Shown piece after piece: positions 4,042-22,934 of a stretch of DNA of 24,992 nucleotides. Source of the stretch: a virus; IMG/VR virus record IMGVR_UViG_3300031951_001128, positions 1-24,992 of that record; one strand, written 5' to 3'. The position numbers and the translations under genes are program-made. Each line of letters starts with the position of its first letter. Within the stretch, counting starts at the first letter, position 1. The notes under the pieces were generated by a model, which was not told the origin of the DNA, ran no database searches, and saw only the letters and a program-made list of their open reading frames with translations.

Positions 4042-4189
4042 ACCTGCTACACCTAGTCCGAGTGGCACTCGGTATTGTTCAAATTGTCAGTTGACTAAAA
4101 ATGCAGTAGGTGGTTTCTGGAAGTTGTACGACAACAAAACCAAACGTAGATGGATATGCAAGCAATGTGCTGAAAAGCGATTTACTTAG
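4010..4189 (+). CDS. Small zinc-ribbon protein
   Basis: A 59-residue basic protein. CSNC at residues 23-26 and CKQC at 50-53 form a four-cysteine zinc ribbon with a 23-residue spacing, separated by an aromatic and Lys/Arg-rich strand region (FWKLYDNKTKRRW). AAAAGGA at 3996-4002 places the start at ATG 4010; a second ATG at 4016 is possible. Its beginning lies within the MazG-like gene. It is the last + strand gene, and its final 8 bases overlap the end of the opposing Rz gene. DNA or RNA binding is plausible; the function is unknown. Confidence 0.7.
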   Translation: MQMVSGSKNLEPATPSPSGTRYCSNCQLTKNAVGGFWKLYDNKTKRRWICKQCAEKRFT

Positions 4190-4652
4190 CCTTTATCGTT
4201 TGGTATTGGTCGTAGCATTGCTTGAGGAGGATTCTTGCTTGGTCGGCTCTGGCAGCTTCCCTTGCAAGAAATTCTGCATCCTCTCTAGGAAGTTCTGCTC
4301 CACTACAGATGACGGTGGGGCATCCAGCATTGGCGGTACTGGACATGGCACTTGCTTTGGTGGCGCGGGATTGCCTGTCGCGCAAGCTGTTAGACAAAGA
4401 GGCAGCGTGAGCAGTAAGATTCTGTATCTCAACATCTTTTTCCTTTCGCAATGTATCTGCTTGTTGCTGTAACAATTGCTCTTTCTCTCGTGCTTCCGCT
4501 TGTGCCTTCGCATATGCGGCTTGCTGTTCGGCGCGTTCCTTATCCCATTGTTGTTGGACATAAGCCTTCCCATCCTGATGGCCTTTGTAATAGCCAACGC
4601 CACCAGCAGTAGAGATGGCAAAGAACACGCCGATCAAAAACCAAGGATTCAT
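4182..4652 (-). CDS. Rz: Rz-like i-spanin
   Basis: A 156-residue inner-membrane spanin subunit that joins the outer-membrane Rz1 lipoprotein to fuse the two membranes in the last step of lysis. Residues ~4-22 form the N-terminal membrane anchor (FLIGVFFAISTAGGVGYYKG). The periplasmic remainder is a long Gln/Glu/Ala/Lys-rich coiled coil (roughly 30-95), then a segment with Cys residues at ~110 and ~115 and a second helix. The Rz1 gene lies wholly within it in another frame, the classical nested arrangement. It is coupled by ATGA to the preceding secreted-protein gene. It ends the leftward late operon. Confidence 0.9.
   Translation of the reverse strand: MNPWFLIGVFFAISTAGGVGYYKGHQDGKAYVQQQWDKERAEQQAAYAKAQAEAREKEQLLQQQADTLRKEKDVEIQNLTAHAASLSNSLRDRQSRATKASAMSSTANAGCPTVICSGAELPREDAEFLAREAARADQARILLKQCYDQYQTIKAK
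4193..4435 (-). CDS. Rz1: Rz1-like o-spanin lipoprotein, nested in Rz
   Basis: An 80-residue lipoprotein read in a different frame within Rz. The start MLRYRILLLTLPLCLTAC gives a signal peptide with lipobox LTAC, so Cys18 would be lipidated and the protein anchored in the outer membrane. The mature part begins Pro-rich (NPAPPKQVPCPVPP), typical of Rz1 proteins. The open frame extends upstream to 4621, but only the start at 4435 gives the signal peptide. It pairs with the Rz C-terminus across the periplasm. The presence of this pair shows a Gram-negative host. Confidence 0.88.
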   Translation of the reverse strand: MLRYRILLLTLPLCLTACATGNPAPPKQVPCPVPPMLDAPPSSVVEQNFLERMQNFLQGKLPEPTKQESSSSNATTNTKR

Positions 4653-10281: not shown

Positions 10282-13200
10282 TTATGTAATCTTTGTAACA
10301 ACTATTGAACCTAGAGCAGAAGCAGGAGAATAGTTACCAGACTTATCTCTCATGCGAACTGCGACTCTATATTTTGTTCCCGCCAATGTAAATCTAGGAG
10401 TCGGGAATTTATTCAAATCAATCTGTGCATTTCTTGTTGTGCTTTCAACTATCTGACAATCAACATCATTCCAAAAGTTATCAGTCGTACCATCAGGTAT
10501 GCCCGGAGTCCCGACTTTGCCAATCTGAAATTCGTATTCATCAAAATCATTTGGCAATGTTGGCGCACTAACAATCGTAAATTCAAGAATAGATTTTTTA
10601 CGATTAACAGTAACAGTTGCAGTAGCCATCGTCACAGGCGCAGTTACATCATGAATGAATGAAAAACTACTCGTAGAATAATTATTGTATGTATCGTAAG
10701 TTCTAATATAAAAAGTCGTAGCAGCAGTTGCAGATACATTCGTTAATCTAGCTGCTGATGCTCGTCCTTTATATAGATATCCTGTCGCTGTACCCCAATT
10801 CGTATTAGAGGTTCTTATCTCATATCCAGCCACATCAAATGTAGTGGGTGCGACATCATTCCAATCTAGTGCTAACTCAACTACAGTCTTTGTGGTTTTA
10901 ACAATCGTCTGCGTTACAGCAGAAACATTGCTCGGACTATTTAGCGTTATGTTTACTGAGGTTGCATTTAAAGAATAATTTTTTAGTACATCAAATGCTT
11001 TTACAAAATAGGTATAAGTTCCCGGAACTTTGTTTACAAATTTATATTCGCTTGCTTTTCCTTTGAACAATGGTGCAGGACTTACCAATCCCCAATTAGC
11101 ATTGGATGTTCTAACTTCATATCCATCTAAATCTGGTTCGGTATTATTAGCCCAATCTAATCTAACTTCATTTCCAGATTCCACCGCAGTCAATCCTGTT
11201 ACTGATTGTGGCTTGCTTGTTTTGCCAACAACGGTATGATTACTTGATGTTTGCCACGGACCTACTCTACCTTCCATGCTGACATACCGTAGGCGCATTT
11301 TATAAGTTGCGCTTTCTTGTACGTCATCAAAAAAGATATCTGATACTTTGCCTACCTCAACAGTCTTTGTGCTTTCCCAATCATCACCTGTACTAGATGC
11401 AAGAATTATTTGTCCTTCAACATACTTGCAGGACTTAGGTAGATTTTTTGCATGGGAAAAAGTAACTCTAATTCTGTATTGATATTTACCCGGAGCCAGT
11501 ACAACCAATACAGACTCATCACTCTTTAATGCAGTAATGGTTGGCTTAACTGTTATGACACTCTGCTCAATCTTAGGTGGCAAAGTAATCTTGCTACTGA
11601 AAGCAGGAATAGGCTCATCATCAACATCATAGACAGCCGGAGAGTAATCAACCAAAGTTAGTTTGGCGCAATAATTATCCATCGGCTCAATACTTTGAAC
11701 CAATAAATCAACCGACTCTGAACTCAGAGAACCAAACATGAATAGATTGCCACCAGCACCTTCTGTCGCTGTGACGCTACTTGTCAGATCAATTGTTTGA
11801 TAATAGCCATCAGATACTTTTGCCGCTACTGTTCGTGTTATTGATGTGCCATCTGCCAATCTAATTCTGATTGTGTATTGTGTGCTTGCATCCATAGGTA
11901 CAAGCTCATCTAGTTCTAGCTGAGTACCAGTAATACGATTCTTAATTCTGCCTGTAGCAATACCCCACATAGGCACATCATGCGTGACCTTAACTCTATC
12001 GCCACGAGTACAAATTAAATGCTCCATATCAACATTTAATGTATATGTCTCTGGACGCAATTTAATTTGTGCAAGATGGAATCTAGCCATCTTAAATACT
12101 TGATCAGAATTGGTAACACCCGGAAGTGTCAATCCTTCAAAGTAGGTAGCATTCGCGCTTGTGTAGCCATCGTTATAGACAATGCGCTCATCAGGAATGT
12201 ATCCTTTATCAGCATTAACAAACTGTACTCTGAAAGCATGAGGCATTTTTGGCAATGTCTTTACAGATTCAAAGCCCCATGAATTGTGCGGAGTAAAGAA
12301 TTGCGCGATTGTATTATTAGGCCTATCAATAATGACAGTCCACTTGCCATCTCTAATAGTTGGGGATGCGCGACCAGCAGCACAAATATCTCTGAGGATA
12401 TCTAATACGCTGCGTTGATCAGATATCACAGCATCATAAACATAGTCTTTTGTATTACAGAAATTATGCCAATCAATCAATGCTGGCAAATCAATTTCTG
12501 AATCACTTACAGCTTGTGCATTTGCAGGATGTTGCAATACATATCTAAATAAACTTGCAGGATTGCGAGTTGAATTCAGCACCCAATTAGTTGGATGTGC
12601 GCTAACGGTGACAACCCCAGCACCACTTAATGCAGGACTAGAAGCAAAAGTAACTCTAAATGTTTTAGCTGTTACATTGCTGACTGTATAGGTTCCATCT
12701 ACACCAACGCCAGAAGTAAAGTCTAAGACAACACTATTTCCGTTTTCATATGGATGACCAGCATAGGTAATCACACAAGAATTACTTGTGGTAACGGATG
12801 CAAGACCTGTTGCAATATCATAGTCTTTACATACAGAAGTAACTAGCGCAGAGATACCATCAATCGATCCATTTAACTGATTAGTCGCTTTTACTTTTAT
12901 TGCTGTGAGCGTGAGATTCTTTGGTGGAATTACAGGCTTAGTATTGTCAAATCCTGTAACTGTTAAAAAATACGCATCATGTAAACGAGTGTATTTAACA
13001 CCGCCAGATGAAAAATCTTTTTCGCTTATATTTGTTCTTCTTACCCTTACTTCTTGTGCGCCATAAGGCACATCAAATGTCACATTGTATGTAAATGCTT
13101 TTTTAGAGATTGCATATTCTTCACCTGTATTACCTAGTAAAACATCATCACCACCAGCACGATCAATAGTACCTGCGGCAATGGTTGCCGTTAAGCCACT

Positions 13201-15141
13201 CATTGTAAGATTGCAACCAGTAATCGTATATGGAGATGCAGAACGACGATCAACAGTAGTATAGACATTCGATCCATAAAAACAGATTCTCCATATTTCA
13301 ATTTCAGATGGAGGAATAGTAGGCAACCTTGCGTAGGTTAATGATAAAGGATCATATCCAATTCTAAAATTTTTCTGCCAAGTTAAAAGCCCACCAGATG
13401 GATTATTATTAACATCCGCAGTTAATGCGCCATTTCGTATTATTACTTTATTAAATGAATCAATAGAAATAATTGACCATCTAAAATATGGATCTGCTCT
13501 TCTACCATAAGGCCAGTGAGCTGTAGCTTTTGATAATTTAAGTTTAGATGAGACAACTGTATCGCGTACATCTTGCCATGCTGAAATAGGCAAGAGCGTA
13601 TTATTGTCTAGTTGCCTAATCTGAACTTGACCTCTAAATGGAGCAACTGCTTCCTTACCTGCATTCTCCCCATCAAGAGTAATTCTCCGTAAACCTTCAG
13701 GGAAATGAAGATCAACTTTAACTTTGTTACATGGATCAGCAATTACTTTTTCTATAAATGCTGAAGCAATAACAGTATCGCAACTTACTGCGCCATCTGT
13801 GCCTGTCCATGGAATCGTAAATGTATCTGTGTCAACATAAGTTACTGTTGCTTCTATCAATACTGTGCCGCTTAAGTAAACTCTTACCTGCCATCCATTT
13901 GCAAACCCATGCGCTGCTGTTGTATTGATTGTGACTACATTACTTGTTCTTGTTGCTGAACTTACCGATGCAGACTTACATTCAAGCAAAAGATTAACTT
14001 GCTCTTGTGATGTATCTGTACCGTAAATCTTCTGAAACTTTGTAGCGTTATCAACTACACCATCATAGTCATTGATTGTGTCGTATTCAATTTCTTCTAA
14101 TGTGTCTATCGGTACATCACCAACACGATAGTCATACACTTGCAAAGGAGCATATCCCCAACACAACAACATCTTGAGGTAACTTGTCGTAGCATTTGTC
14201 TCTACAAAATTGATTGCTGCCAGCGGTGGCGTATATTTGTATTGACCAAGAATTACAGGTATTGCTTCATACGGATAAGCGATATTGCTTCCAGCCTGTA
14301 ATAGGTCTTGTCGTTTTACTGACAGATCAACGGTAGGAGTCTCTGGAATGCGAACTGGGAAAAGCGCATTGACCAACATATTCCCTGCTACAGTTAATGC
14401 AGCAGTTGCAGCTAATGCAGTCCATCCAGTTAATTGCGTATAAGTTGCTACTGCCCAAGGGGCAGCGACAGCAACAAAAATAAACCCAACAATTCTTAAG
14501 GCATCATCATCACCAGCTACAGCACGAAACTCTACTCGCGCTCCCTGATGTGGCTTTACTAACTCCCATTGATCTTTAGGAATTACTTTGCCATCAACCA
14601 TCATCAATGCGTCATAAGGCATTGAAGTGGTTGTCTTTATATGATCCGCAATTTGTTTGATGTTCCAATCAGAAGGAACTAATCCGTCAATACGCTCATT
14701 GCGTAAAGGATGAATCAATCCACCAATGCTTGTGCTTTGTTCTTGTTGACGTTCTTTATATCTGCCATACGCAACAATACGATGTTTCCAAACGCCTGTA
14801 GTCAATCGCTCTACTGTAGCAGTTTGATTTCTCCTTACATGAAGAAACATCCCTGGACTTGTGACAACGCCAATATGAACTGGCTGGCCTTTGATTCTAA
14901 ATAGGACAACATCACCAGAGCGAGGCTCAGTAACCTCTTGCCATCCTTCTTTATTAATGGCAATAATTTCTGCAATATGATCAACATCAGCCGCTTCGTA
15001 TTCATCAACGAATGTCGGTAATGTGATATTGAATTGTTCTTTATAAATTAAGCGGACAAGACCCCAACAATCAGAGCCATCTTTATCTCTGCCTTTTTCC
15101 TTGTATGGAATACCAACATAATTATTCCACCAGTAATCCAT
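10282..15141 (-). CDS. Tail-tip fusion: NlpC/P60 peptidase, I-like and J-like host-specificity protein
   Basis: A 1619-residue protein. Residues 1-135 form an NlpC/P60 cysteine peptidase: DGSDCWGLV gives catalytic Cys25, PVHIGVV gives His89 and FLHV the third polar residue; in lambda this is the separate protein K. Residues ~140-265 resemble tail assembly protein I, with hydrophobic stretches at ~215-262. Residues ~265-1300 correspond to the J-like baseplate hub and attachment region, with inserted beta modules near 395-450 and 783-850. The end holds fibronectin-III domains at ~1309-1400, ~1401-1500 and a divergent one to the end; the first two share the pattern GYE[VI]RTSN-NWG. It forms the tip, digests peptidoglycan and recognises the host. 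Start: TGATG overlap. Confidence 0.92.
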   Translation of the reverse strand: MDYWWNNYVGIPYKEKGRDKDGSDCWGLVRLIYKEQFNITLPTFVDEYEAADVDHIAEIIAINKEGWQEVTEPRSGDVVLFRIKGQPVHIGVVTSPGMFLHVRRNQTATVERLTTGVWKHRIVAYGRYKERQQEQSTSIGGLIHPLRNERIDGLVPSDWNIKQIADHIKTTTSMPYDALMMVDGKVIPKDQWELVKPHQGARVEFRAVAGDDDALRIVGFIFVAVAAPWAVATYTQLTGWTALAATAALTVAGNMLVNALFPVRIPETPTVDLSVKRQDLLQAGSNIAYPYEAIPVILGQYKYTPPLAAINFVETNATTSYLKMLLCWGYAPLQVYDYRVGDVPIDTLEEIEYDTINDYDGVVDNATKFQKIYGTDTSQEQVNLLLECKSASVSSATRTSNVVTINTTAAHGFANGWQVRVYLSGTVLIEATVTYVDTDTFTIPWTGTDGAVSCDTVIASAFIEKVIADPCNKVKVDLHFPEGLRRITLDGENAGKEAVAPFRGQVQIRQLDNNTLLPISAWQDVRDTVVSSKLKLSKATAHWPYGRRADPYFRWSIISIDSFNKVIIRNGALTADVNNNPSGGLLTWQKNFRIGYDPLSLTYARLPTIPPSEIEIWRICFYGSNVYTTVDRRSASPYTITGCNLTMSGLTATIAAGTIDRAGGDDVLLGNTGEEYAISKKAFTYNVTFDVPYGAQEVRVRRTNISEKDFSSGGVKYTRLHDAYFLTVTGFDNTKPVIPPKNLTLTAIKVKATNQLNGSIDGISALVTSVCKDYDIATGLASVTTSNSCVITYAGHPYENGNSVVLDFTSGVGVDGTYTVSNVTAKTFRVTFASSPALSGAGVVTVSAHPTNWVLNSTRNPASLFRYVLQHPANAQAVSDSEIDLPALIDWHNFCNTKDYVYDAVISDQRSVLDILRDICAAGRASPTIRDGKWTVIIDRPNNTIAQFFTPHNSWGFESVKTLPKMPHAFRVQFVNADKGYIPDERIVYNDGYTSANATYFEGLTLPGVTNSDQVFKMARFHLAQIKLRPETYTLNVDMEHLICTRGDRVKVTHDVPMWGIATGRIKNRITGTQLELDELVPMDASTQYTIRIRLADGTSITRTVAAKVSDGYYQTIDLTSSVTATEGAGGNLFMFGSLSSESVDLLVQSIEPMDNYCAKLTLVDYSPAVYDVDDEPIPAFSSKITLPPKIEQSVITVKPTITALKSDESVLVVLAPGKYQYRIRVTFSHAKNLPKSCKYVEGQIILASSTGDDWESTKTVEVGKVSDIFFDDVQESATYKMRLRYVSMEGRVGPWQTSSNHTVVGKTSKPQSVTGLTAVESGNEVRLDWANNTEPDLDGYEVRTSNANWGLVSPAPLFKGKASEYKFVNKVPGTYTYFVKAFDVLKNYSLNATSVNITLNSPSNVSAVTQTIVKTTKTVVELALDWNDVAPTTFDVAGYEIRTSNTNWGTATGYLYKGRASAARLTNVSATAATTFYIRTYDTYNNYSTSSFSFIHDVTAPVTMATATVTVNRKKSILEFTIVSAPTLPNDFDEYEFQIGKVGTPGIPDGTTDNFWNDVDCQIVESTTRNAQIDLNKFPTPRFTLAGTKYRVAVRMRDKSGNYSPASALGSIVVTKIT

Positions 15142-15656: not shown

Positions 15657-16015
15657 GGAAGCACTTGTAAGGTCAAGGTGACGCGATATAAATCTTTGCT
15701 CTCATACCCTATCTGATACATTGCTTCGCCTTGTGGCACGATTCTGACCTCTTCCACGACACCTGTTCTTGGATGTGTATAGTTAAATCTTGCGATGCCA
15801 GATAGTGTGGTATAGACAAAAGTTTCTAATGTACCTACTTGCGTATCGGTAAGAATATAAGACACACGCAAAGTATCTGGCAGTAAACTTCTACGGCGCA
15901 TCTTTGCAGGTCCAGCATCCATTGGAGTGATGAGAATATTCAGGTTCTTATCCTCTGAATAATCTGTCAATGGTCTCGCTGGCAATGTAGCAGGCCATGA
16001 ATATGATGCTGCCAT
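15653..16015 (-). CDS. Minor tail protein (lambda M position)
   Basis: A 120-residue beta-rich protein. The pattern SWPATLPARPLTDYSED at the start, an arginine pair in KMRRRSLLP and a C-terminal LYRVTLTLQVLP is typical of small tail-tip proteins immediately after tape measure genes. By synteny it is the tail-tip protein that adds after the tape measure initiator. Coupled by TAATG to the tape measure stop and ATGA to the next gene. No catalytic motif. Confidence 0.75.
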   Translation of the reverse strand: MAASYSWPATLPARPLTDYSEDKNLNILITPMDAGPAKMRRRSLLPDTLRVSYILTDTQVGTLETFVYTTLSGIARFNYTHPRTGVVEEVRIVPQGEAMYQIGYESKDLYRVTLTLQVLP

Positions 16016-18423
16016 TATCTTCTCGCTAAAGCAGGTTTAATACCAAAGGTAGAACGTACAGACATATTTGCATCGCTGCCATTCCTTCTAATTTCCGATG
16101 CAACAACTTCGCCGATCTGCACATTAATTGCTCTGTTGCCGCGACTATCCTTTACTTCGCTTGTCTTAACTTGTGTTCCAGAATAATTATTGATGTTGAC
16201 AGAAACATTACCACCGCCCATCGCATTATTCGGAATCATTGTGCCATTGCTAATTGGCTTAAACAATTCTGGTCCACGTTCGCCAACTAAGTAAGTTGAA
16301 CTCGCATTAACCATCCCGCCGTTTGCTCGACCTGTAAATGCATAACTTGAGGACATGTTGTTTACAGGAGTGCTATTGGTTGTTATTCCTGCGCCACCAG
16401 TTTTACCAAAGTTAAAACTCATGTTGCCAATTGCACTTTCGATTGCATTAGCAAATGGATCAGTCAATGATTTACGAACGATGATTGCAAGAATGTCTTG
16501 TAGCAATCCTTTTAAGATGCTTTGAAAATCTTTAGCTTGCAGAATTGCTTGCTCAAAAGATGATGTTAATGTTTGACCCATTAATTTATAGGTCTGCTTT
16601 AGATCATCTGCGCCACGTTTTGTGTTGTAGATTTCGTCATGCTGTTTAATGAGTGCTTTACTGATACGATCATTGACTTCGGCTTCTTCATATCCAGCAT
16701 CAATTAACTCTTGACGTAACCGCAACAAGTCCTCTTGCGATGCTGCAAATTGTTCATTCTGTGTATTTGTATCTGAGATCAATTGCTTATAGCGCTCTTG
16801 CAATTGATTCGATCTTTCTAGCTCTTTATTTTCTTCTTCTTTCCTAGCCTTCGCTTCGCTGATCATGGCGATATATTCATTCATCAAAGTAATTTCTTCT
16901 TGAGTCGCGCCAAGAGATTTTGCTTTGATAACAAGCAACTCATCTTCTGTCATGCCGAGCGAGTTGTAGCTTTGAATCAAATCTTGTAGAACTTGATTCA
17001 ATTCTTCTTTCTTCTTTTTTTCTTCTTCGTAATTTTTAATGTAACTTATTTGTTGTTCAATACTTTTAATAATTTGCTGACTAGCACCAAGACGCTCTAA
17101 TTCAATAACAGCTAACTCACCTTGAGTTTTTGTCAGTTCATTGTAGGATTTATTTTGTGCTTCAACAATTTGCTGAATTTTCTTTTCATTCTCTTGTTGC
17201 GCTACGAGTTCTTTTTTCTGAGCGATAAGACTTGTAATTTGATCTATCTGTTTTTGATTCGCACCAAAAGTCTTTGCATCAACAAGTAGCAAAGCCTCTT
17301 TACCTTTGACAAGTTCATCTATTTCCCTTGTCTGCTGTTTAATTAGATCAGCAAGTTTTTTTGCATTATCGGTAGCAGTCTTATCTGCTTCGCCTGTCAT
17401 TTTTATTTGACGCTTCGGCGCAGCCGTTACTGGCTCATCTTTCTTAGGTGATCGCGCTTCTTGTAATGTCTTATAGTAAGTAAGTAACTTTTCTAATTCT
17501 TTTATCTCGTTACGCATTGTTGCGGCAGCACGAGGGTTTGATCTGCCTAATTTCTCAGCTTCTTCTTTTGCTTTTGTAATCTCTTTAGTAAGGCTTGCGA
17601 CTTGTTGATCAACGCCCTTAAATGGATTCGTTAAACCCAACCCTAGTTTTTGAGTAAAACTAAGTTGTGCTTTTTCTGCTGCAATGATTTCCTCCATGTA
17701 TTTATTCAATACAGGAATAATGTCATTAGCAATGCTCTTGGCAAGACCACCAAAAGATGTTTTAAGCCGATCTAAATTGTCATTGAATATCGCAGCTTGT
17801 TTGGCAGCTTGAGGTGTAATAACCCCACCTAGCTTTTCCAATTCAATACCCATGTCTTGGATGCCCTTGCGACCTCCATTTAAGAATGGGATTAGTTCTG
17901 CGCCAGACTTACCAAAGATAGATGTTGCAATGGCAACCTTACCAGCACCATCTTCATATTGCGTAAAAGCATCTGCAATGTCGTACAGTAATTGCTCTGT
18001 AGATTTTAGATTGCCAGCAGAATCTTTGACAGATACGCCAATGGTTTTGAATGATTCATTAGCAGACGCACTACCGGATGCAGCTTCAACAGCGGCTTTG
18101 CTGAGTTTGACTAATGAAGTATTAAGGCCATCAATATCTACGTTAGAGAATTTTGCAGCATAAGCTAATTTAGAAAGCGTATCAGCAGCGATGCCAACCT
18201 TTTCTGACATATCATCCATTCTATCCATTGCATCAATTGATGCCTTGATAAAACCGACAAACATATCAGCAGACAATACCGCGGCAATTCCCGCTGCAAG
18301 TGTCTGTGCGCCACCATACATCTTATCGAAAGTCTTTTGCGATGTAGCAGCAGCACGTTCCATCGCTACTCTGAACTGTGCCGTTTCCGCAGTAAGATTA
18401 ACGACTAAATCTGCTAATGCCAT
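16015..18423 (-). CDS. Tape measure protein
   Basis: An 802-residue protein that sets tail length and is ejected during infection. The N-terminal ~250 residues resemble phage tape measures (LVVNLTAETAQFRVAMERAA, then MDDMSEKVGIAADTLSKLAY, then FGKSGAELIPFLNGG), with a hydrophobic stretch near 40-60. Residues ~275-600 are a Lys/Glu/Gln-rich coiled coil with 59-residue repeats: LVDAKTFGAN, VIELERLGAS, VIKAKSLGAT, then a diverged fourth copy. The C-terminal ~110 residues are Gly/Asn-rich with RANGGMVNASSTYLVGERGP, a common end of tape measures. At about 0.15 nm per residue the tail would be near 120 nm. It starts directly after the GT stop. Confidence 0.93.
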   Translation of the reverse strand: MALADLVVNLTAETAQFRVAMERAAATSQKTFDKMYGGAQTLAAGIAAVLSADMFVGFIKASIDAMDRMDDMSEKVGIAADTLSKLAYAAKFSNVDIDGLNTSLVKLSKAAVEAASGSASANESFKTIGVSVKDSAGNLKSTEQLLYDIADAFTQYEDGAGKVAIATSIFGKSGAELIPFLNGGRKGIQDMGIELEKLGGVITPQAAKQAAIFNDNLDRLKTSFGGLAKSIANDIIPVLNKYMEEIIAAEKAQLSFTQKLGLGLTNPFKGVDQQVASLTKEITKAKEEAEKLGRSNPRAAATMRNEIKELEKLLTYYKTLQEARSPKKDEPVTAAPKRQIKMTGEADKTATDNAKKLADLIKQQTREIDELVKGKEALLLVDAKTFGANQKQIDQITSLIAQKKELVAQQENEKKIQQIVEAQNKSYNELTKTQGELAVIELERLGASQQIIKSIEQQISYIKNYEEEKKKKEELNQVLQDLIQSYNSLGMTEDELLVIKAKSLGATQEEITLMNEYIAMISEAKARKEEENKELERSNQLQERYKQLISDTNTQNEQFAASQEDLLRLRQELIDAGYEEAEVNDRISKALIKQHDEIYNTKRGADDLKQTYKLMGQTLTSSFEQAILQAKDFQSILKGLLQDILAIIVRKSLTDPFANAIESAIGNMSFNFGKTGGAGITTNSTPVNNMSSSYAFTGRANGGMVNASSTYLVGERGPELFKPISNGTMIPNNAMGGGNVSVNINNYSGTQVKTSEVKDSRGNRAINVQIGEVVASEIRRNGSDANMSVRSTFGIKPALARR

Positions 18424-18968
18424 TTATTTCTTCCTTACTATACGGTTGGCAAATTGCGCTCTTAAGACTTCAGATGCTTTGGGCTTTTCAGGTTCTTGCA
18501 ATTTGAAATAGGCAATCCATTCGCTTAGTTCTGCGCTGTCCATTCTCCTTAGCATTTCCCCGACCGGAATGCCTAGCTTCAAAGCTAGATCAAAATAAAA
18601 TAAACGCTCCGGTCGGTTCTTTAGTTTTTTTTCAGGTCATCCAATTCTGATTCGGTAAGCCGATTCAATCTTTGGGCAACCTTAACGCAACGCTCTAATG
18701 CGGCAACAGACTTTTCACCGAGGGCGATTACATCATCCTCAGCAAATAGTCGATTACCTTTTTCATCTACAGCAGTTGCTACAACCAATCTTGCTCTTAC
18801 GTTAATCAATGCACCATCTTTTGATTGCACCAGATGTTGTTCCCAAGCATCTCTTGCGTATCCTGTCATCGTGCTAATGATTACTTCACCTCCCCACTCT
18901 GGAACTTTGACAACCTCTTTTTTTAGATCGTCAGCCTTCAGAATGGCATCTCTATTTAATATCGCCAT
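18424..18968 (-). CDS. Tail assembly chaperone GT (-1 frameshift product)
   Basis: The G frame is joined to a second frame by slippage at 18624-18630, giving about 181 residues: 115 from G, then about 66 beginning LKNRPERLFYFDLALKLG and including ELSEWIAYFKLQ, a motif conserved in T-domain extensions of siphophages. In lambda, G and GT bind the tape measure and recruit tube subunits, then leave. The T frame has no plausible start of its own and runs to TAA at 18424-18426, one base before the tape measure gene. The slippery site, spacer and stem are listed separately. Only a small fraction of ribosomes is expected to shift. Confidence 0.9.
18560..18630 (-). promoter_or_regulatory. Programmed -1 frameshift signal (slippery heptamer and stem)
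   Basis: Read on the minus strand, the sequence is CTG AAA AAA AAC TAA in the G frame. It contains A AAA AAC (18624-18630), one of the most efficient bacterial -1 heptamers, followed by the G stop. After a 7-base spacer (TAAAGAA), CCGACCGGA (18608-18616) pairs perfectly over 9 bp with TCCGGTCGG (18560-18568), and a smaller hairpin CTAGCTT/AAGCTAG (18573-18579/18582-18588) sits in the loop. Spacing and stability match known stimulators. The shifted frame then continues to the T stop. Confidence 0.92.
18621..18968 (-). CDS. Tail assembly chaperone G
   Basis: A 115-residue protein ending at TAA 18621-18623 immediately after the slippery site. It is mostly helical: ILKADDLKKEVVKVPEWGGE, then a middle DEKGNRLFAEDDVIALGEKS, then RLNRLTESELDDLKKN at the end, the usual shape of a G-type chaperone, with a conserved WGGEV-like strand early. 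It is the major product; GT is the shifted minor one. It follows the tail tube gene by three bases, the normal order (tube, G, GT, tape measure). Confidence 0.9.
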   Translation of the reverse strand: MAILNRDAILKADDLKKEVVKVPEWGGEVIISTMTGYARDAWEQHLVQSKDGALINVRARLVVATAVDEKGNRLFAEDDVIALGEKSVAALERCVKVAQRLNRLTESELDDLKKN

Positions 18969-18971
18969 AAA

Positions 18972-19391
18972 TTAAGTCTCAGTAATTGAACCAGTCACTT
19001 CCAAAGTTACGTTAGCTTCAACCACACCATCAACAGCACCAGATACAGAGAAGCCTGTAATGTATGCGCTGAATGACCAAGTAGTCGGCGATGTATCAGT
19101 AAAGATCAACTGAAACGGAGTAAGTGTGCGAGCAGCACGATTGGTACGCAGCAAGTCATGCTGAGTATCATCCGGCAGATAGTTAATTACAAAGCTAAGT
19201 TGGCCTTCATCTTGCAAGCCCATACGCTTTTCTTTTGCTGTAGACGATAGATCAGTTACGTCAATCACAGCAGCAGATCCACCCGGACCAGTGAAAGACT
19301 TCACTTCTTTGATGGTTGTATAAGTAATCGGCGATGCGCCAGTCCCGATTTTAAGCAAAGTGCCTTGTGCTTCAATTGCGTTCGTTGACAT
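18972..19391 (-). CDS. Major tail tube protein
   Basis: A 139-residue beta-rich protein with the pattern of siphophage tube subunits: EAQGTLLKIGTG near the start, then ITYTTIKEVKSFTGPGGSAA, VIDVTDLSSTAKEKRMGL and a C-terminal WSFSAYITGFSVSGAVDGV. Hexameric rings of this protein stack around the tape measure. GGAG lies six bases before ATG 19391, stronger than most sites in the operon, as expected for a highly made structural protein. Neighbours (tail terminator upstream, chaperone downstream) agree. Confidence 0.92.
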   Translation of the reverse strand: MSTNAIEAQGTLLKIGTGASPITYTTIKEVKSFTGPGGSAAVIDVTDLSSTAKEKRMGLQDEGQLSFVINYLPDDTQHDLLRTNRAARTLTPFQLIFTDTSPTTWSFSAYITGFSVSGAVDGVVEANVTLEVTGSITET

Positions 19392-21155: not shown

Positions 21156-21677
21156 TTACCTCAATGGTTTCATAGCACTAACATAAACGTATATCGTCAT
21201 TCCGCTTTGATGAATACTATCTATCAAGAATCTTTTTTTCAATTGTTTTTCCCACCAAGGAATCGGCATTTGGATGAGATGAGCATTCCTGCCATCTGCC
21301 AAAACTTTAGCCGCTGCTCCGGTATGTATTGTGAAAAATCCTTTATAGATAGTCAGTTCTTGCAGGTGATCTAATACGTTATCCAACAACGAAGGTTCAA
21401 TATGTTCCAGTACATCAATGCAACAAACTAGATCCGCTTTTGTTGCCTCTCCATATTCAGGGAAAACAGGATCATACGGATAATAATTTTCTAATTTTCT
21501 GGTAAGGCATTTTTTTAATAATTGCTTTCCAGCACCGTAATCACACAAACTATCAATCTTATATTCATCAATTAGGTCATCTATCAATGGCGCGACATAC
21601 TTTGATGCCACTCCGTAATTCTGATTTTTATGCAGCAACTTTTGAAGCTCAAGATATTGATTTGTTATAAATTGCAT
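21156..21677 (-). CDS. SAM-dependent methyltransferase-like protein
   Basis: A 173-residue class I methyltransferase-like protein. Motif I is DSLCDYGAGKQ around residues 43-51, with the usual Asp and Gly spacing for S-adenosylmethionine binding; LVCCIDVLEHIEP at 83-95 is the post-motif strand and helix of small-molecule methyltransferases. NAHLIQMPIPWWEKQLKKRF at 131-150 looks like the substrate side. ATG 21677 is preferred: the earlier start would overlap the previous gene by 125 bases. It overlaps it by 29. With the two genes before it, it may methylate a sugar on the virion, the host or small molecules; the substrate is unknown. Confidence 0.85.
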   Translation of the reverse strand: MQFITNQYLELQKLLHKNQNYGVASKYVAPLIDDLIDEYKIDSLCDYGAGKQLLKKCLTRKLENYYPYDPVFPEYGEATKADLVCCIDVLEHIEPSLLDNVLDHLQELTIYKGFFTIHTGAAAKVLADGRNAHLIQMPIPWWEKQLKKRFLIDSIHQSGMTIYVYVSAMKPLR

Positions 21678-22320
21678 TTTTGTACTCGCGCCACCAATGT
21701 TCTGATCCTCTAGCAGTTCGATACGATTCAAACCAAGGAATGCCAGCAGTCCAATGCAACAACTTAGCCCCACCTACATCTTGATCTTCATCAATTAATA
21801 AATTGTATGATTGATCAAGTTCTGCAATTTCTTCATCTTTGAGAAATTTTAATTGCAGTAAATCAATTACTTTTTCTTCTGCAATTCTTTCCATTGTCAT
21901 TTGTCGCCATGATGGATGCTCACAGTTAATCATCATCATGCTCGCCCAATTCTTTCGTTCGTAATCTTCGTTCCTACACTCCATGTCTGTGCCGATATAT
22001 TTCCTAGAGTGCTTTGTTTCGTATTGATGCTTAACTACCGCAACCGCATCAGTCATATCATCTAAAGTTTTTTTGTACAGAGCGATATCACTTACCATCA
22101 ACATATCGCTTCCATCCATAAAGATTGCTCTACCAGTAAAGTTCATCAAAGCTGGAATAGCAAATCTTGAAACTGTAAACTTATTTGAGCCACACTTAAA
22201 ACTTAAATTGCTAATTGGAGTTAATGCTACAGGTACAGTTGATCTACGAATGACTGAACTTGTAAAAACATGAAATCCAATCTGCTCTCTCTCATCATAT
22301 CCACAAAACAAATTTAGCAT
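21649..22320 (-). CDS. Glycosyltransferase-like protein (GT-A / GT8-like)
   Basis: A 223-residue protein with the outline of phage GT-A glycosyltransferases: LFCGYDEREQIGFHVFTSSV at the start (sugar-nucleotide strand), VSRFAIPALMNFTGRAIFMD at 50-69 and then MDGSDMLM, where Asp69 and Asp72 form a DxxD/DxD-like metal site. A central charged helical stretch and a C-terminal HWTAGIPWFESYR follow, a pattern I recall from phage family members. The product would transfer a sugar; donor and acceptor are unknown. It overlaps the preceding gene by 7 bases and the methyltransferase by 29. Confidence 0.82.
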   Translation of the reverse strand: MLNLFCGYDEREQIGFHVFTSSVIRRSTVPVALTPISNLSFKCGSNKFTVSRFAIPALMNFTGRAIFMDGSDMLMVSDIALYKKTLDDMTDAVAVVKHQYETKHSRKYIGTDMECRNEDYERKNWASMMMINCEHPSWRQMTMERIAEEKVIDLLQLKFLKDEEIAELDQSYNLLIDEDQDVGGAKLLHWTAGIPWFESYRTARGSEHWWREYKNAIYNKSIS

Positions 22321-22934
22321 TGGTCTATAGACAATCTTTTAAAACAAGTTAAGGAAGTTTCTCTTGTTGCATTTATTACTTCAACTTGTTCAGCTTCTAA
22401 ATCTTTTGCAAGCACTTTAAACTTTTCCACCCAATCTTTTAGCAAGTCTTTTGATGGTGTGCTTTTGTCACCATGATAAGGATGTTTGCCAAAGAAATGT
22501 GGTTGATCATTTGTTCTCTGCATATCAAAGCCAAGCAAAATTATCCTAGCTGCGCCAAACAAAAAAGCTAGATTGACTGCCTGATATCCTGAGTTCCCTC
22601 CAAAATGCAAAATCTTTTTTCCAAGACCGTATTCCCAAACGCCCATCATGCGATTTAACTTATATTTTCTTTCCGCATCTGCCGATTGAGTCCATAGTTC
22701 AGCATTAGTAGTTTCTTTAATTCGTGCCATATGATGATCCCACCAATGGTCATCACAAGCATATAGAACGTCAGCACTTGGTATATATCTCCATGTATCT
22801 TTTACAGCAATGACGCGCCAACCATCTGCTCGCTGTTTCTGCGCGACGATCTGCGCGTCCGCTTCGGTAAGGCTTGGTCCGCTGGCGAGGACTGCGACAG
22901 TTGCTCCACTCCATCGTGCAGCGGATCGGTCAAT
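22314..22934 (-). CDS. MptE/DUF115-like phage protein with non-canonical start
   Basis: About 206 residues if read from ATT 22934. It resembles phage proteins with a Rossmann-like N-terminus: GATVAVLASGPSLTEAD, then VIAVKDTWRYIPSADVLYAC and DDHWWDHH, then GGNSGYQAVNLAFLFGAARI, LLGFDMQ and HPYHGD. The frame is open from 23036, but contains no ATG, GTG or TTG before the conserved region; the first ATG (22730) would lose 68 residues of core. AAAGGA (22939-22944) lies four bases before ATT 22934. Possible explanations are ATT initiation, frameshift from the overlapping upstream frame, or a sequence error. Probable role in sugar or nucleotide modification, with the next two genes. Confidence 0.72.
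   Translation of the reverse strand: MDRSAARWSGATVAVLASGPSLTEADAQIVAQKQRADGWRVIAVKDTWRYIPSADVLYACDDHWWDHHMARIKETTNAELWTQSADAERKYKLNRMMGVWEYGLGKKILHFGGNSGYQAVNLAFLFGAARIILLGFDMQRTNDQPHFFGKHPYHGDKSTPSKDLLKDWVEKFKVLAKDLEAEQVEVINATRETSLTCFKRLSIDQC

Follow-up and report, generated by a model that had tools for sequence, protein, structure and literature searches.

Among the closest described counterparts of the locus reported here are the tail assembly chaperones G and GT of phage lambda (Levin 1993; Xu 2004, 2013; reviewed in PMC5009743), for which lambda slips on the heptamer G_GGA_AAG (PMC7618472) and needs a ratio of about 30 G per GT (PMC5009743). At HK97-like tail chaperone genes frameshifting has been measured at 6-7% (PMC3711429). 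Published G/T junctions of phages include heptamers of the type A_AAA_AAC or G_GGA_AAC, so that the element as such is already known; the present case concerns an uncultured phage group. The same heptamer type is found at the G/T junction of phiCbK (AAAAAAC), Colossus (GGGAAAC) and HCTV-2 (A_AAA_AAC), it adjoins the stop as AAAAAAC in Loki and IME_AB3, and in KL1 GGGAAAC adjoins TGA and is accompanied by a stem-loop. All of these belong to other phage lineages and are likened to our locus by heptamer type, KL1 and Loki also by layout. Homologous proteins are encoded by the Streptomyces phages Dubu and phiSASD1 (G with 48-49% identity, T with 61% over 46 residues), where the heptamer is G_GGA_AAC followed by TGA and T is longer than here; the homologues in Dubu, phiSASD1 and Opt-169 are annotated as joined CDSs.

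The locus lies on the minus strand of the window, i.e. the whole stretch of 24,992 nucleotides of IMG/VR record IMGVR_UViG_3300031951_001128 that was analysed. In common with lambda it has the order tube-G-T-tape measure, a probable -1 frameshift site near the end of G and, as a prediction, a low ratio of GT. As the original prediction had remarked, the lambda heptamer is a different one; the locus has A_AAA_AAC, which is immediately followed by the stop, and a 9-bp stem on the 3' side. The features are as follows.

18972-19391, minus strand: major tail tube protein gene, lambda-like (phrog_158, E 8.3e-31; PF16460, E 2e-15)
18621-18968, minus strand: G gene, 115-aa tail assembly chaperone (0-frame product), stop TAA at 18623-18621
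18624-18630, minus strand: slippery heptamer A_AAA_AAC, read from the sequence, within a run of eight A at 18632-18625
18617-18623, minus strand: spacer of 7 nt, read from the sequence, containing the 0-frame stop TAA
18608-18616, minus strand: 5' arm of the stem, CCGACCGGA, read from the sequence; structure beyond the codon-preserving null
18573-18588, minus strand: nested 6-bp hairpin CTAGCT-TTGA-AGCTAG, present in the minimum free energy (MFE) fold
18560-18568, minus strand: 3' arm of the stem, TCCGGTCGG, read from the sequence; structure beyond the codon-preserving null
18424-18624, minus strand: T segment in the -1 frame, 66 codons from CTA (18624-18622) to AAA, stop TAA at 18426-18424
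16015-18423, minus strand: tape measure gene, start ATG at 18423 (several tape measure phrogs, e.g. phrog_8462, E 1.6e-47)

The G/T pair thus sits between the tail tube gene, directly upstream of G, and the tape measure gene, and, as had been predicted, 66 codons can be read in the -1 frame before its stop, which abuts the tape measure start without a gap (TAAATG). At the level of family profiles, the G product matches the tail assembly chaperones of phrog_344 (E 2.7e-28) and T matches the tail proteins of phrog_337 (E 5e-10). The matches of G to PF06222 and of T to PF06223 (Minor tail protein T), to which T is distantly alike, are both below the Pfam cut-offs. G as modelled by AlphaFold2 (mean pLDDT 85) has 2OB9, the tail assembly chaperone of HK97, as its clear top match (Foldseek E 5e-5; Z 9.4 over 99 residues); the folds are alike at a low sequence identity of 20%, and a sequence profile search alone retrieved 2OB9 only at E 0.27. 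Family profiles and predicted fold together support the view that G and T are a tail assembly chaperone pair of the lambda G/GT type. A blastn search of annotated phage records with the frameshift region gave no match.

Elsewhere in the window, likewise on the minus strand, the structural module contains an unusual insert resembling sugar modification functions (21156-22730, flanked by the head genes and the head-tail adaptor), which consists of three overlapping ORFs: methyltransferase-like (phrog_24759), of an unknown family (phrog_28018) and sialyltransferase-like (phrog_4603). A single ORF of 1,619 aa (10282-15141) matches minor tail protein phrog_329 at its N-terminus, looks NlpC/P60-like there, and further on matches phrog_31, the central tail fibre J, an arrangement reminiscent of a fusion of lambda K, I and J. 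At 4182-4652 and 4193-4621 an Rz-like spanin and an Rz1-like ORF with a lipobox-like LTAC are nested in different frames.

On the minus strand the G gene ends CTG AAA AAA AAC TAA, and the heptamer has the coordinates that the original prediction gave it. Of 31 in-frame X_XXY_YYZ heptamers over ~7,670 codons of the window, only this one, at the end of G, is A_AAA_AAC. To judge its conservation, relatives were taken by G homology alone and the G stop was located by reading frame, which makes the resulting count over 61 distinct junctions unbiased; a product of wobble probabilities was set aside, because its junctions had been picked by motif and the reasoning would be circular. A_AAA_AAC is the last heptamer that opens a long -1 ORF in 47 of the 61 junctions, with G_GGA_AAC (2/61) and G_GGA_AAA (3/61) in the same role elsewhere. 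The codon ahead of AAA AAC varies (AAA, CAA, TCA, GTA, ACA, GAA, GCA, encoding K, Q, S, V, T, E and A), while its third base is always A; wherever the next codon is GGA, that third base is G. Inspection of the junction listings by eye revealed no apparent conserved Shine-Dalgarno-like stimulator upstream of the heptamer.

Among bacterial genome contigs, no relative was found with the single G protein as query, whereas an alignment query recovered 15 loci, and the heptamer pattern is repeated at prophage-like loci in Limnohabitans parvus, Marinobacter, Motiliproteus and Paraburkholderia. The loci in Limnohabitans and other Burkholderiales point to a possible host of that kind. In one locus of a Limnohabitans MAG (L127, 2501-2842), A_AAG_GGC adjoins the stop in place of A_AAA_AAC. 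Three relatives (L051, L052, L077) have no X_XXY_YYZ heptamer before the G stop; they carry a G-rich GGGGGAG or GGGGGAA ahead of TCC, which may be a slippery motif of another kind.

AAC is immediately followed by the stop in the window and in most relatives, and the stop adjoins the heptamer in KL1 (GGGAAAC directly before TGA) and Loki as well. This arrangement would also suit the same frameshift with another timing, in which tRNA-Lys would occupy the E site, tRNA-Asn the P site and the stop the A site, and the GT output would depend on the speed of the release factor. Adjacency of heptamer and stop is, however, not required, since several relatives have the heptamer away from the stop: by one codon in most of L033-L050, and by 10-27 codons in the L062, L063, L064, L070, L072, L136 and L137 loci. 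We regard this timing as improbable.

Downstream of the heptamer, the structure proposed in the original prediction is present in full: CCGACCGGA and TCCGGTCGG pair over a perfect 9 bp, 7 bases downstream, and the nested hairpin lies at 18573-18588. The MFE fold of the element, nested hairpin included, has -25.6 kcal/mol. As a null for structure we resampled synonymous codons, leaving the T protein unchanged; under this null a perfect stem of at least 9 bp arose at that position in 0.8% of 20,000 trials, and an equally low MFE in none of 2,000. The 66 nt 3' of the stop are more stable than the null in the window (z -4.0) and in 26 non-redundant relatives (mean z -2.0), as against mean z values of -0.46 to +0.09 for six control windows elsewhere in G and T; a combined (Stouffer) z was left aside because the sequences are related. 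The junction of phiSASD1 (L118) has no excess structure.

What the family keeps is the downstream helix and its position; neither the exact 9-bp stem nor the nested hairpin is family-wide. The helix starts at a median of 6 nt after the heptamer (5-9 nt in 17 of the 26 relatives), and the pairing partner turns over. A stem of the window type occurs in L004, L009, L085-L087, L112 and L113, other hairpins take its place in L046, L060 and L039, and the nested hairpin is not conserved, with 69.7% of cells paired in relatives. In the GC-rich L028 (2342-2411) and L030 (2351-2420) the window stem is replaced, at an equal distance from the heptamer, by a helix of roughly 12 bp whose 3' arm is nearer. 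Among 11 sequences that share the window stem the pairing varies only by G-U variants and a few mismatches; compensatory changes on both sides are absent, and covariation therefore neither proves nor refutes the 9-bp stem. An Rfam scan of the window returned no family. By its position and excess stability the downstream helix is a putative frameshift stimulator; G/GT pairs of this class often have such a structure, though it is not obligatory.

Ribosomal slippage leads one to expect a positioned 3' helix. Transcriptional slippage, in which RNA polymerase would add one A in the A8 run and so place G and T in one frame, does not. One extra A does bring T into frame, and the A8 run is the sole A/T run of at least 8 in the window, so that such slippage could contribute a little GT in this particular phage. 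The relatives, however, conserve the heptamer rather than the A run, some of them having G_GGA_AAC instead of A_AAA_AAC, and over 42 distinct junctions the A run has a length of 8 in 3, 7 in 7, 6 in 23 and 3 in 9. As the source of GT we consider transcriptional slippage very improbable.

Translation of T in the -1 frame is supported by its substitution pattern in ten relatives, in which changes fall mainly on third positions (0.187, 0.097 and 0.498 by -1 frame codon position) and pN/pS across the T segment is 0.12 in the -1 frame versus 1.81 and 2.73 in the others. Purifying selection is visible from near the beginning of T. The first 13 T codons hold no start codon, and the earliest candidates (TTG at codon 14, ATG at codons 23 and 27) all lie beyond the conserved motif RPERxFYF at the beginning of T. 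Given the selection in the -1 frame and the lack of an early start codon, T is a coding extension that requires a change of frame from G. Some records do have T as a separate CDS, yet its production by reinitiation past the G stop, with no G-T fusion, is extremely improbable in view of the starts lying beyond RPERxFYF and the selection near the beginning of T.

A programmed -1 ribosomal frameshift that yields the tail chaperones G and GT is consequently the reading that we predict with high confidence; it is supported by the family profiles, the predicted fold, the coding signature of T, the conservation of the heptamer and the excess 3' structure, and the original prediction of a G/GT chaperone is borne out to that extent. 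Most ribosomes would stop at TAA 18623-18621 and release G of 115 aa, while a minority would shift back by one base at A_AAA_AAC, where tRNA-Lys reads AAA and tRNA-Asn reads AAC, the helix from about 7 nt downstream holding the mRNA during slippage. The slipped ribosomes would then read the 66 T codons, giving a GT of 181 aa, and the predicted peptide across the G-T junction contains DDLKKNLKNRPER. By analogy with lambda, G would coat the tape measure protein, the T domain of GT would recruit the tail tube protein, and both G and GT would leave the finished tail. Both the occurrence of slippage and the role of GT are what we infer from these comparisons.

The claim that A_AAA_AAC is highly efficient in bacteria did not hold: in E. 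coli assays it is a weak, low-efficiency heptamer (Sharma et al.; PMC4066793; PMC5009743), and its A-site codon AAC falls outside the high-efficiency type X_XXA_AAG, for which an all-purine or all-pyrimidine A-site codon (AAG or AAA) is needed. The slippage rate is expected to be low, perhaps a few per cent, and a weak heptamer fits the low GT/G ratio that lambda needs. A more specific proposal, which we put forward as speculative and on balance doubtful, is that A_AAA_AAC, interchangeable with G_GGA_AAC and weak in E. coli, is kept in a widespread phage chaperone family, with tRNA-Asn and not tRNA-Lys in the slipping A site and usually with the stop adjacent. In that case tRNA-Asn (e.g. through its wobble modification) and the speed of the release factor would determine how much GT is made, and the 3' helix would be rebuilt repeatedly from different partners at a fixed position.

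The general picture of frameshifts in phage tail genes is unchanged by these results. For this uncultured phage group and its prophage relatives they establish how G and GT are correctly annotated; gene callers would split or truncate them. The family moreover forms a natural series, with heptamer and 3' helix position kept and helix partners changing, that is useful for tests of how weak bacterial heptamers are tuned.
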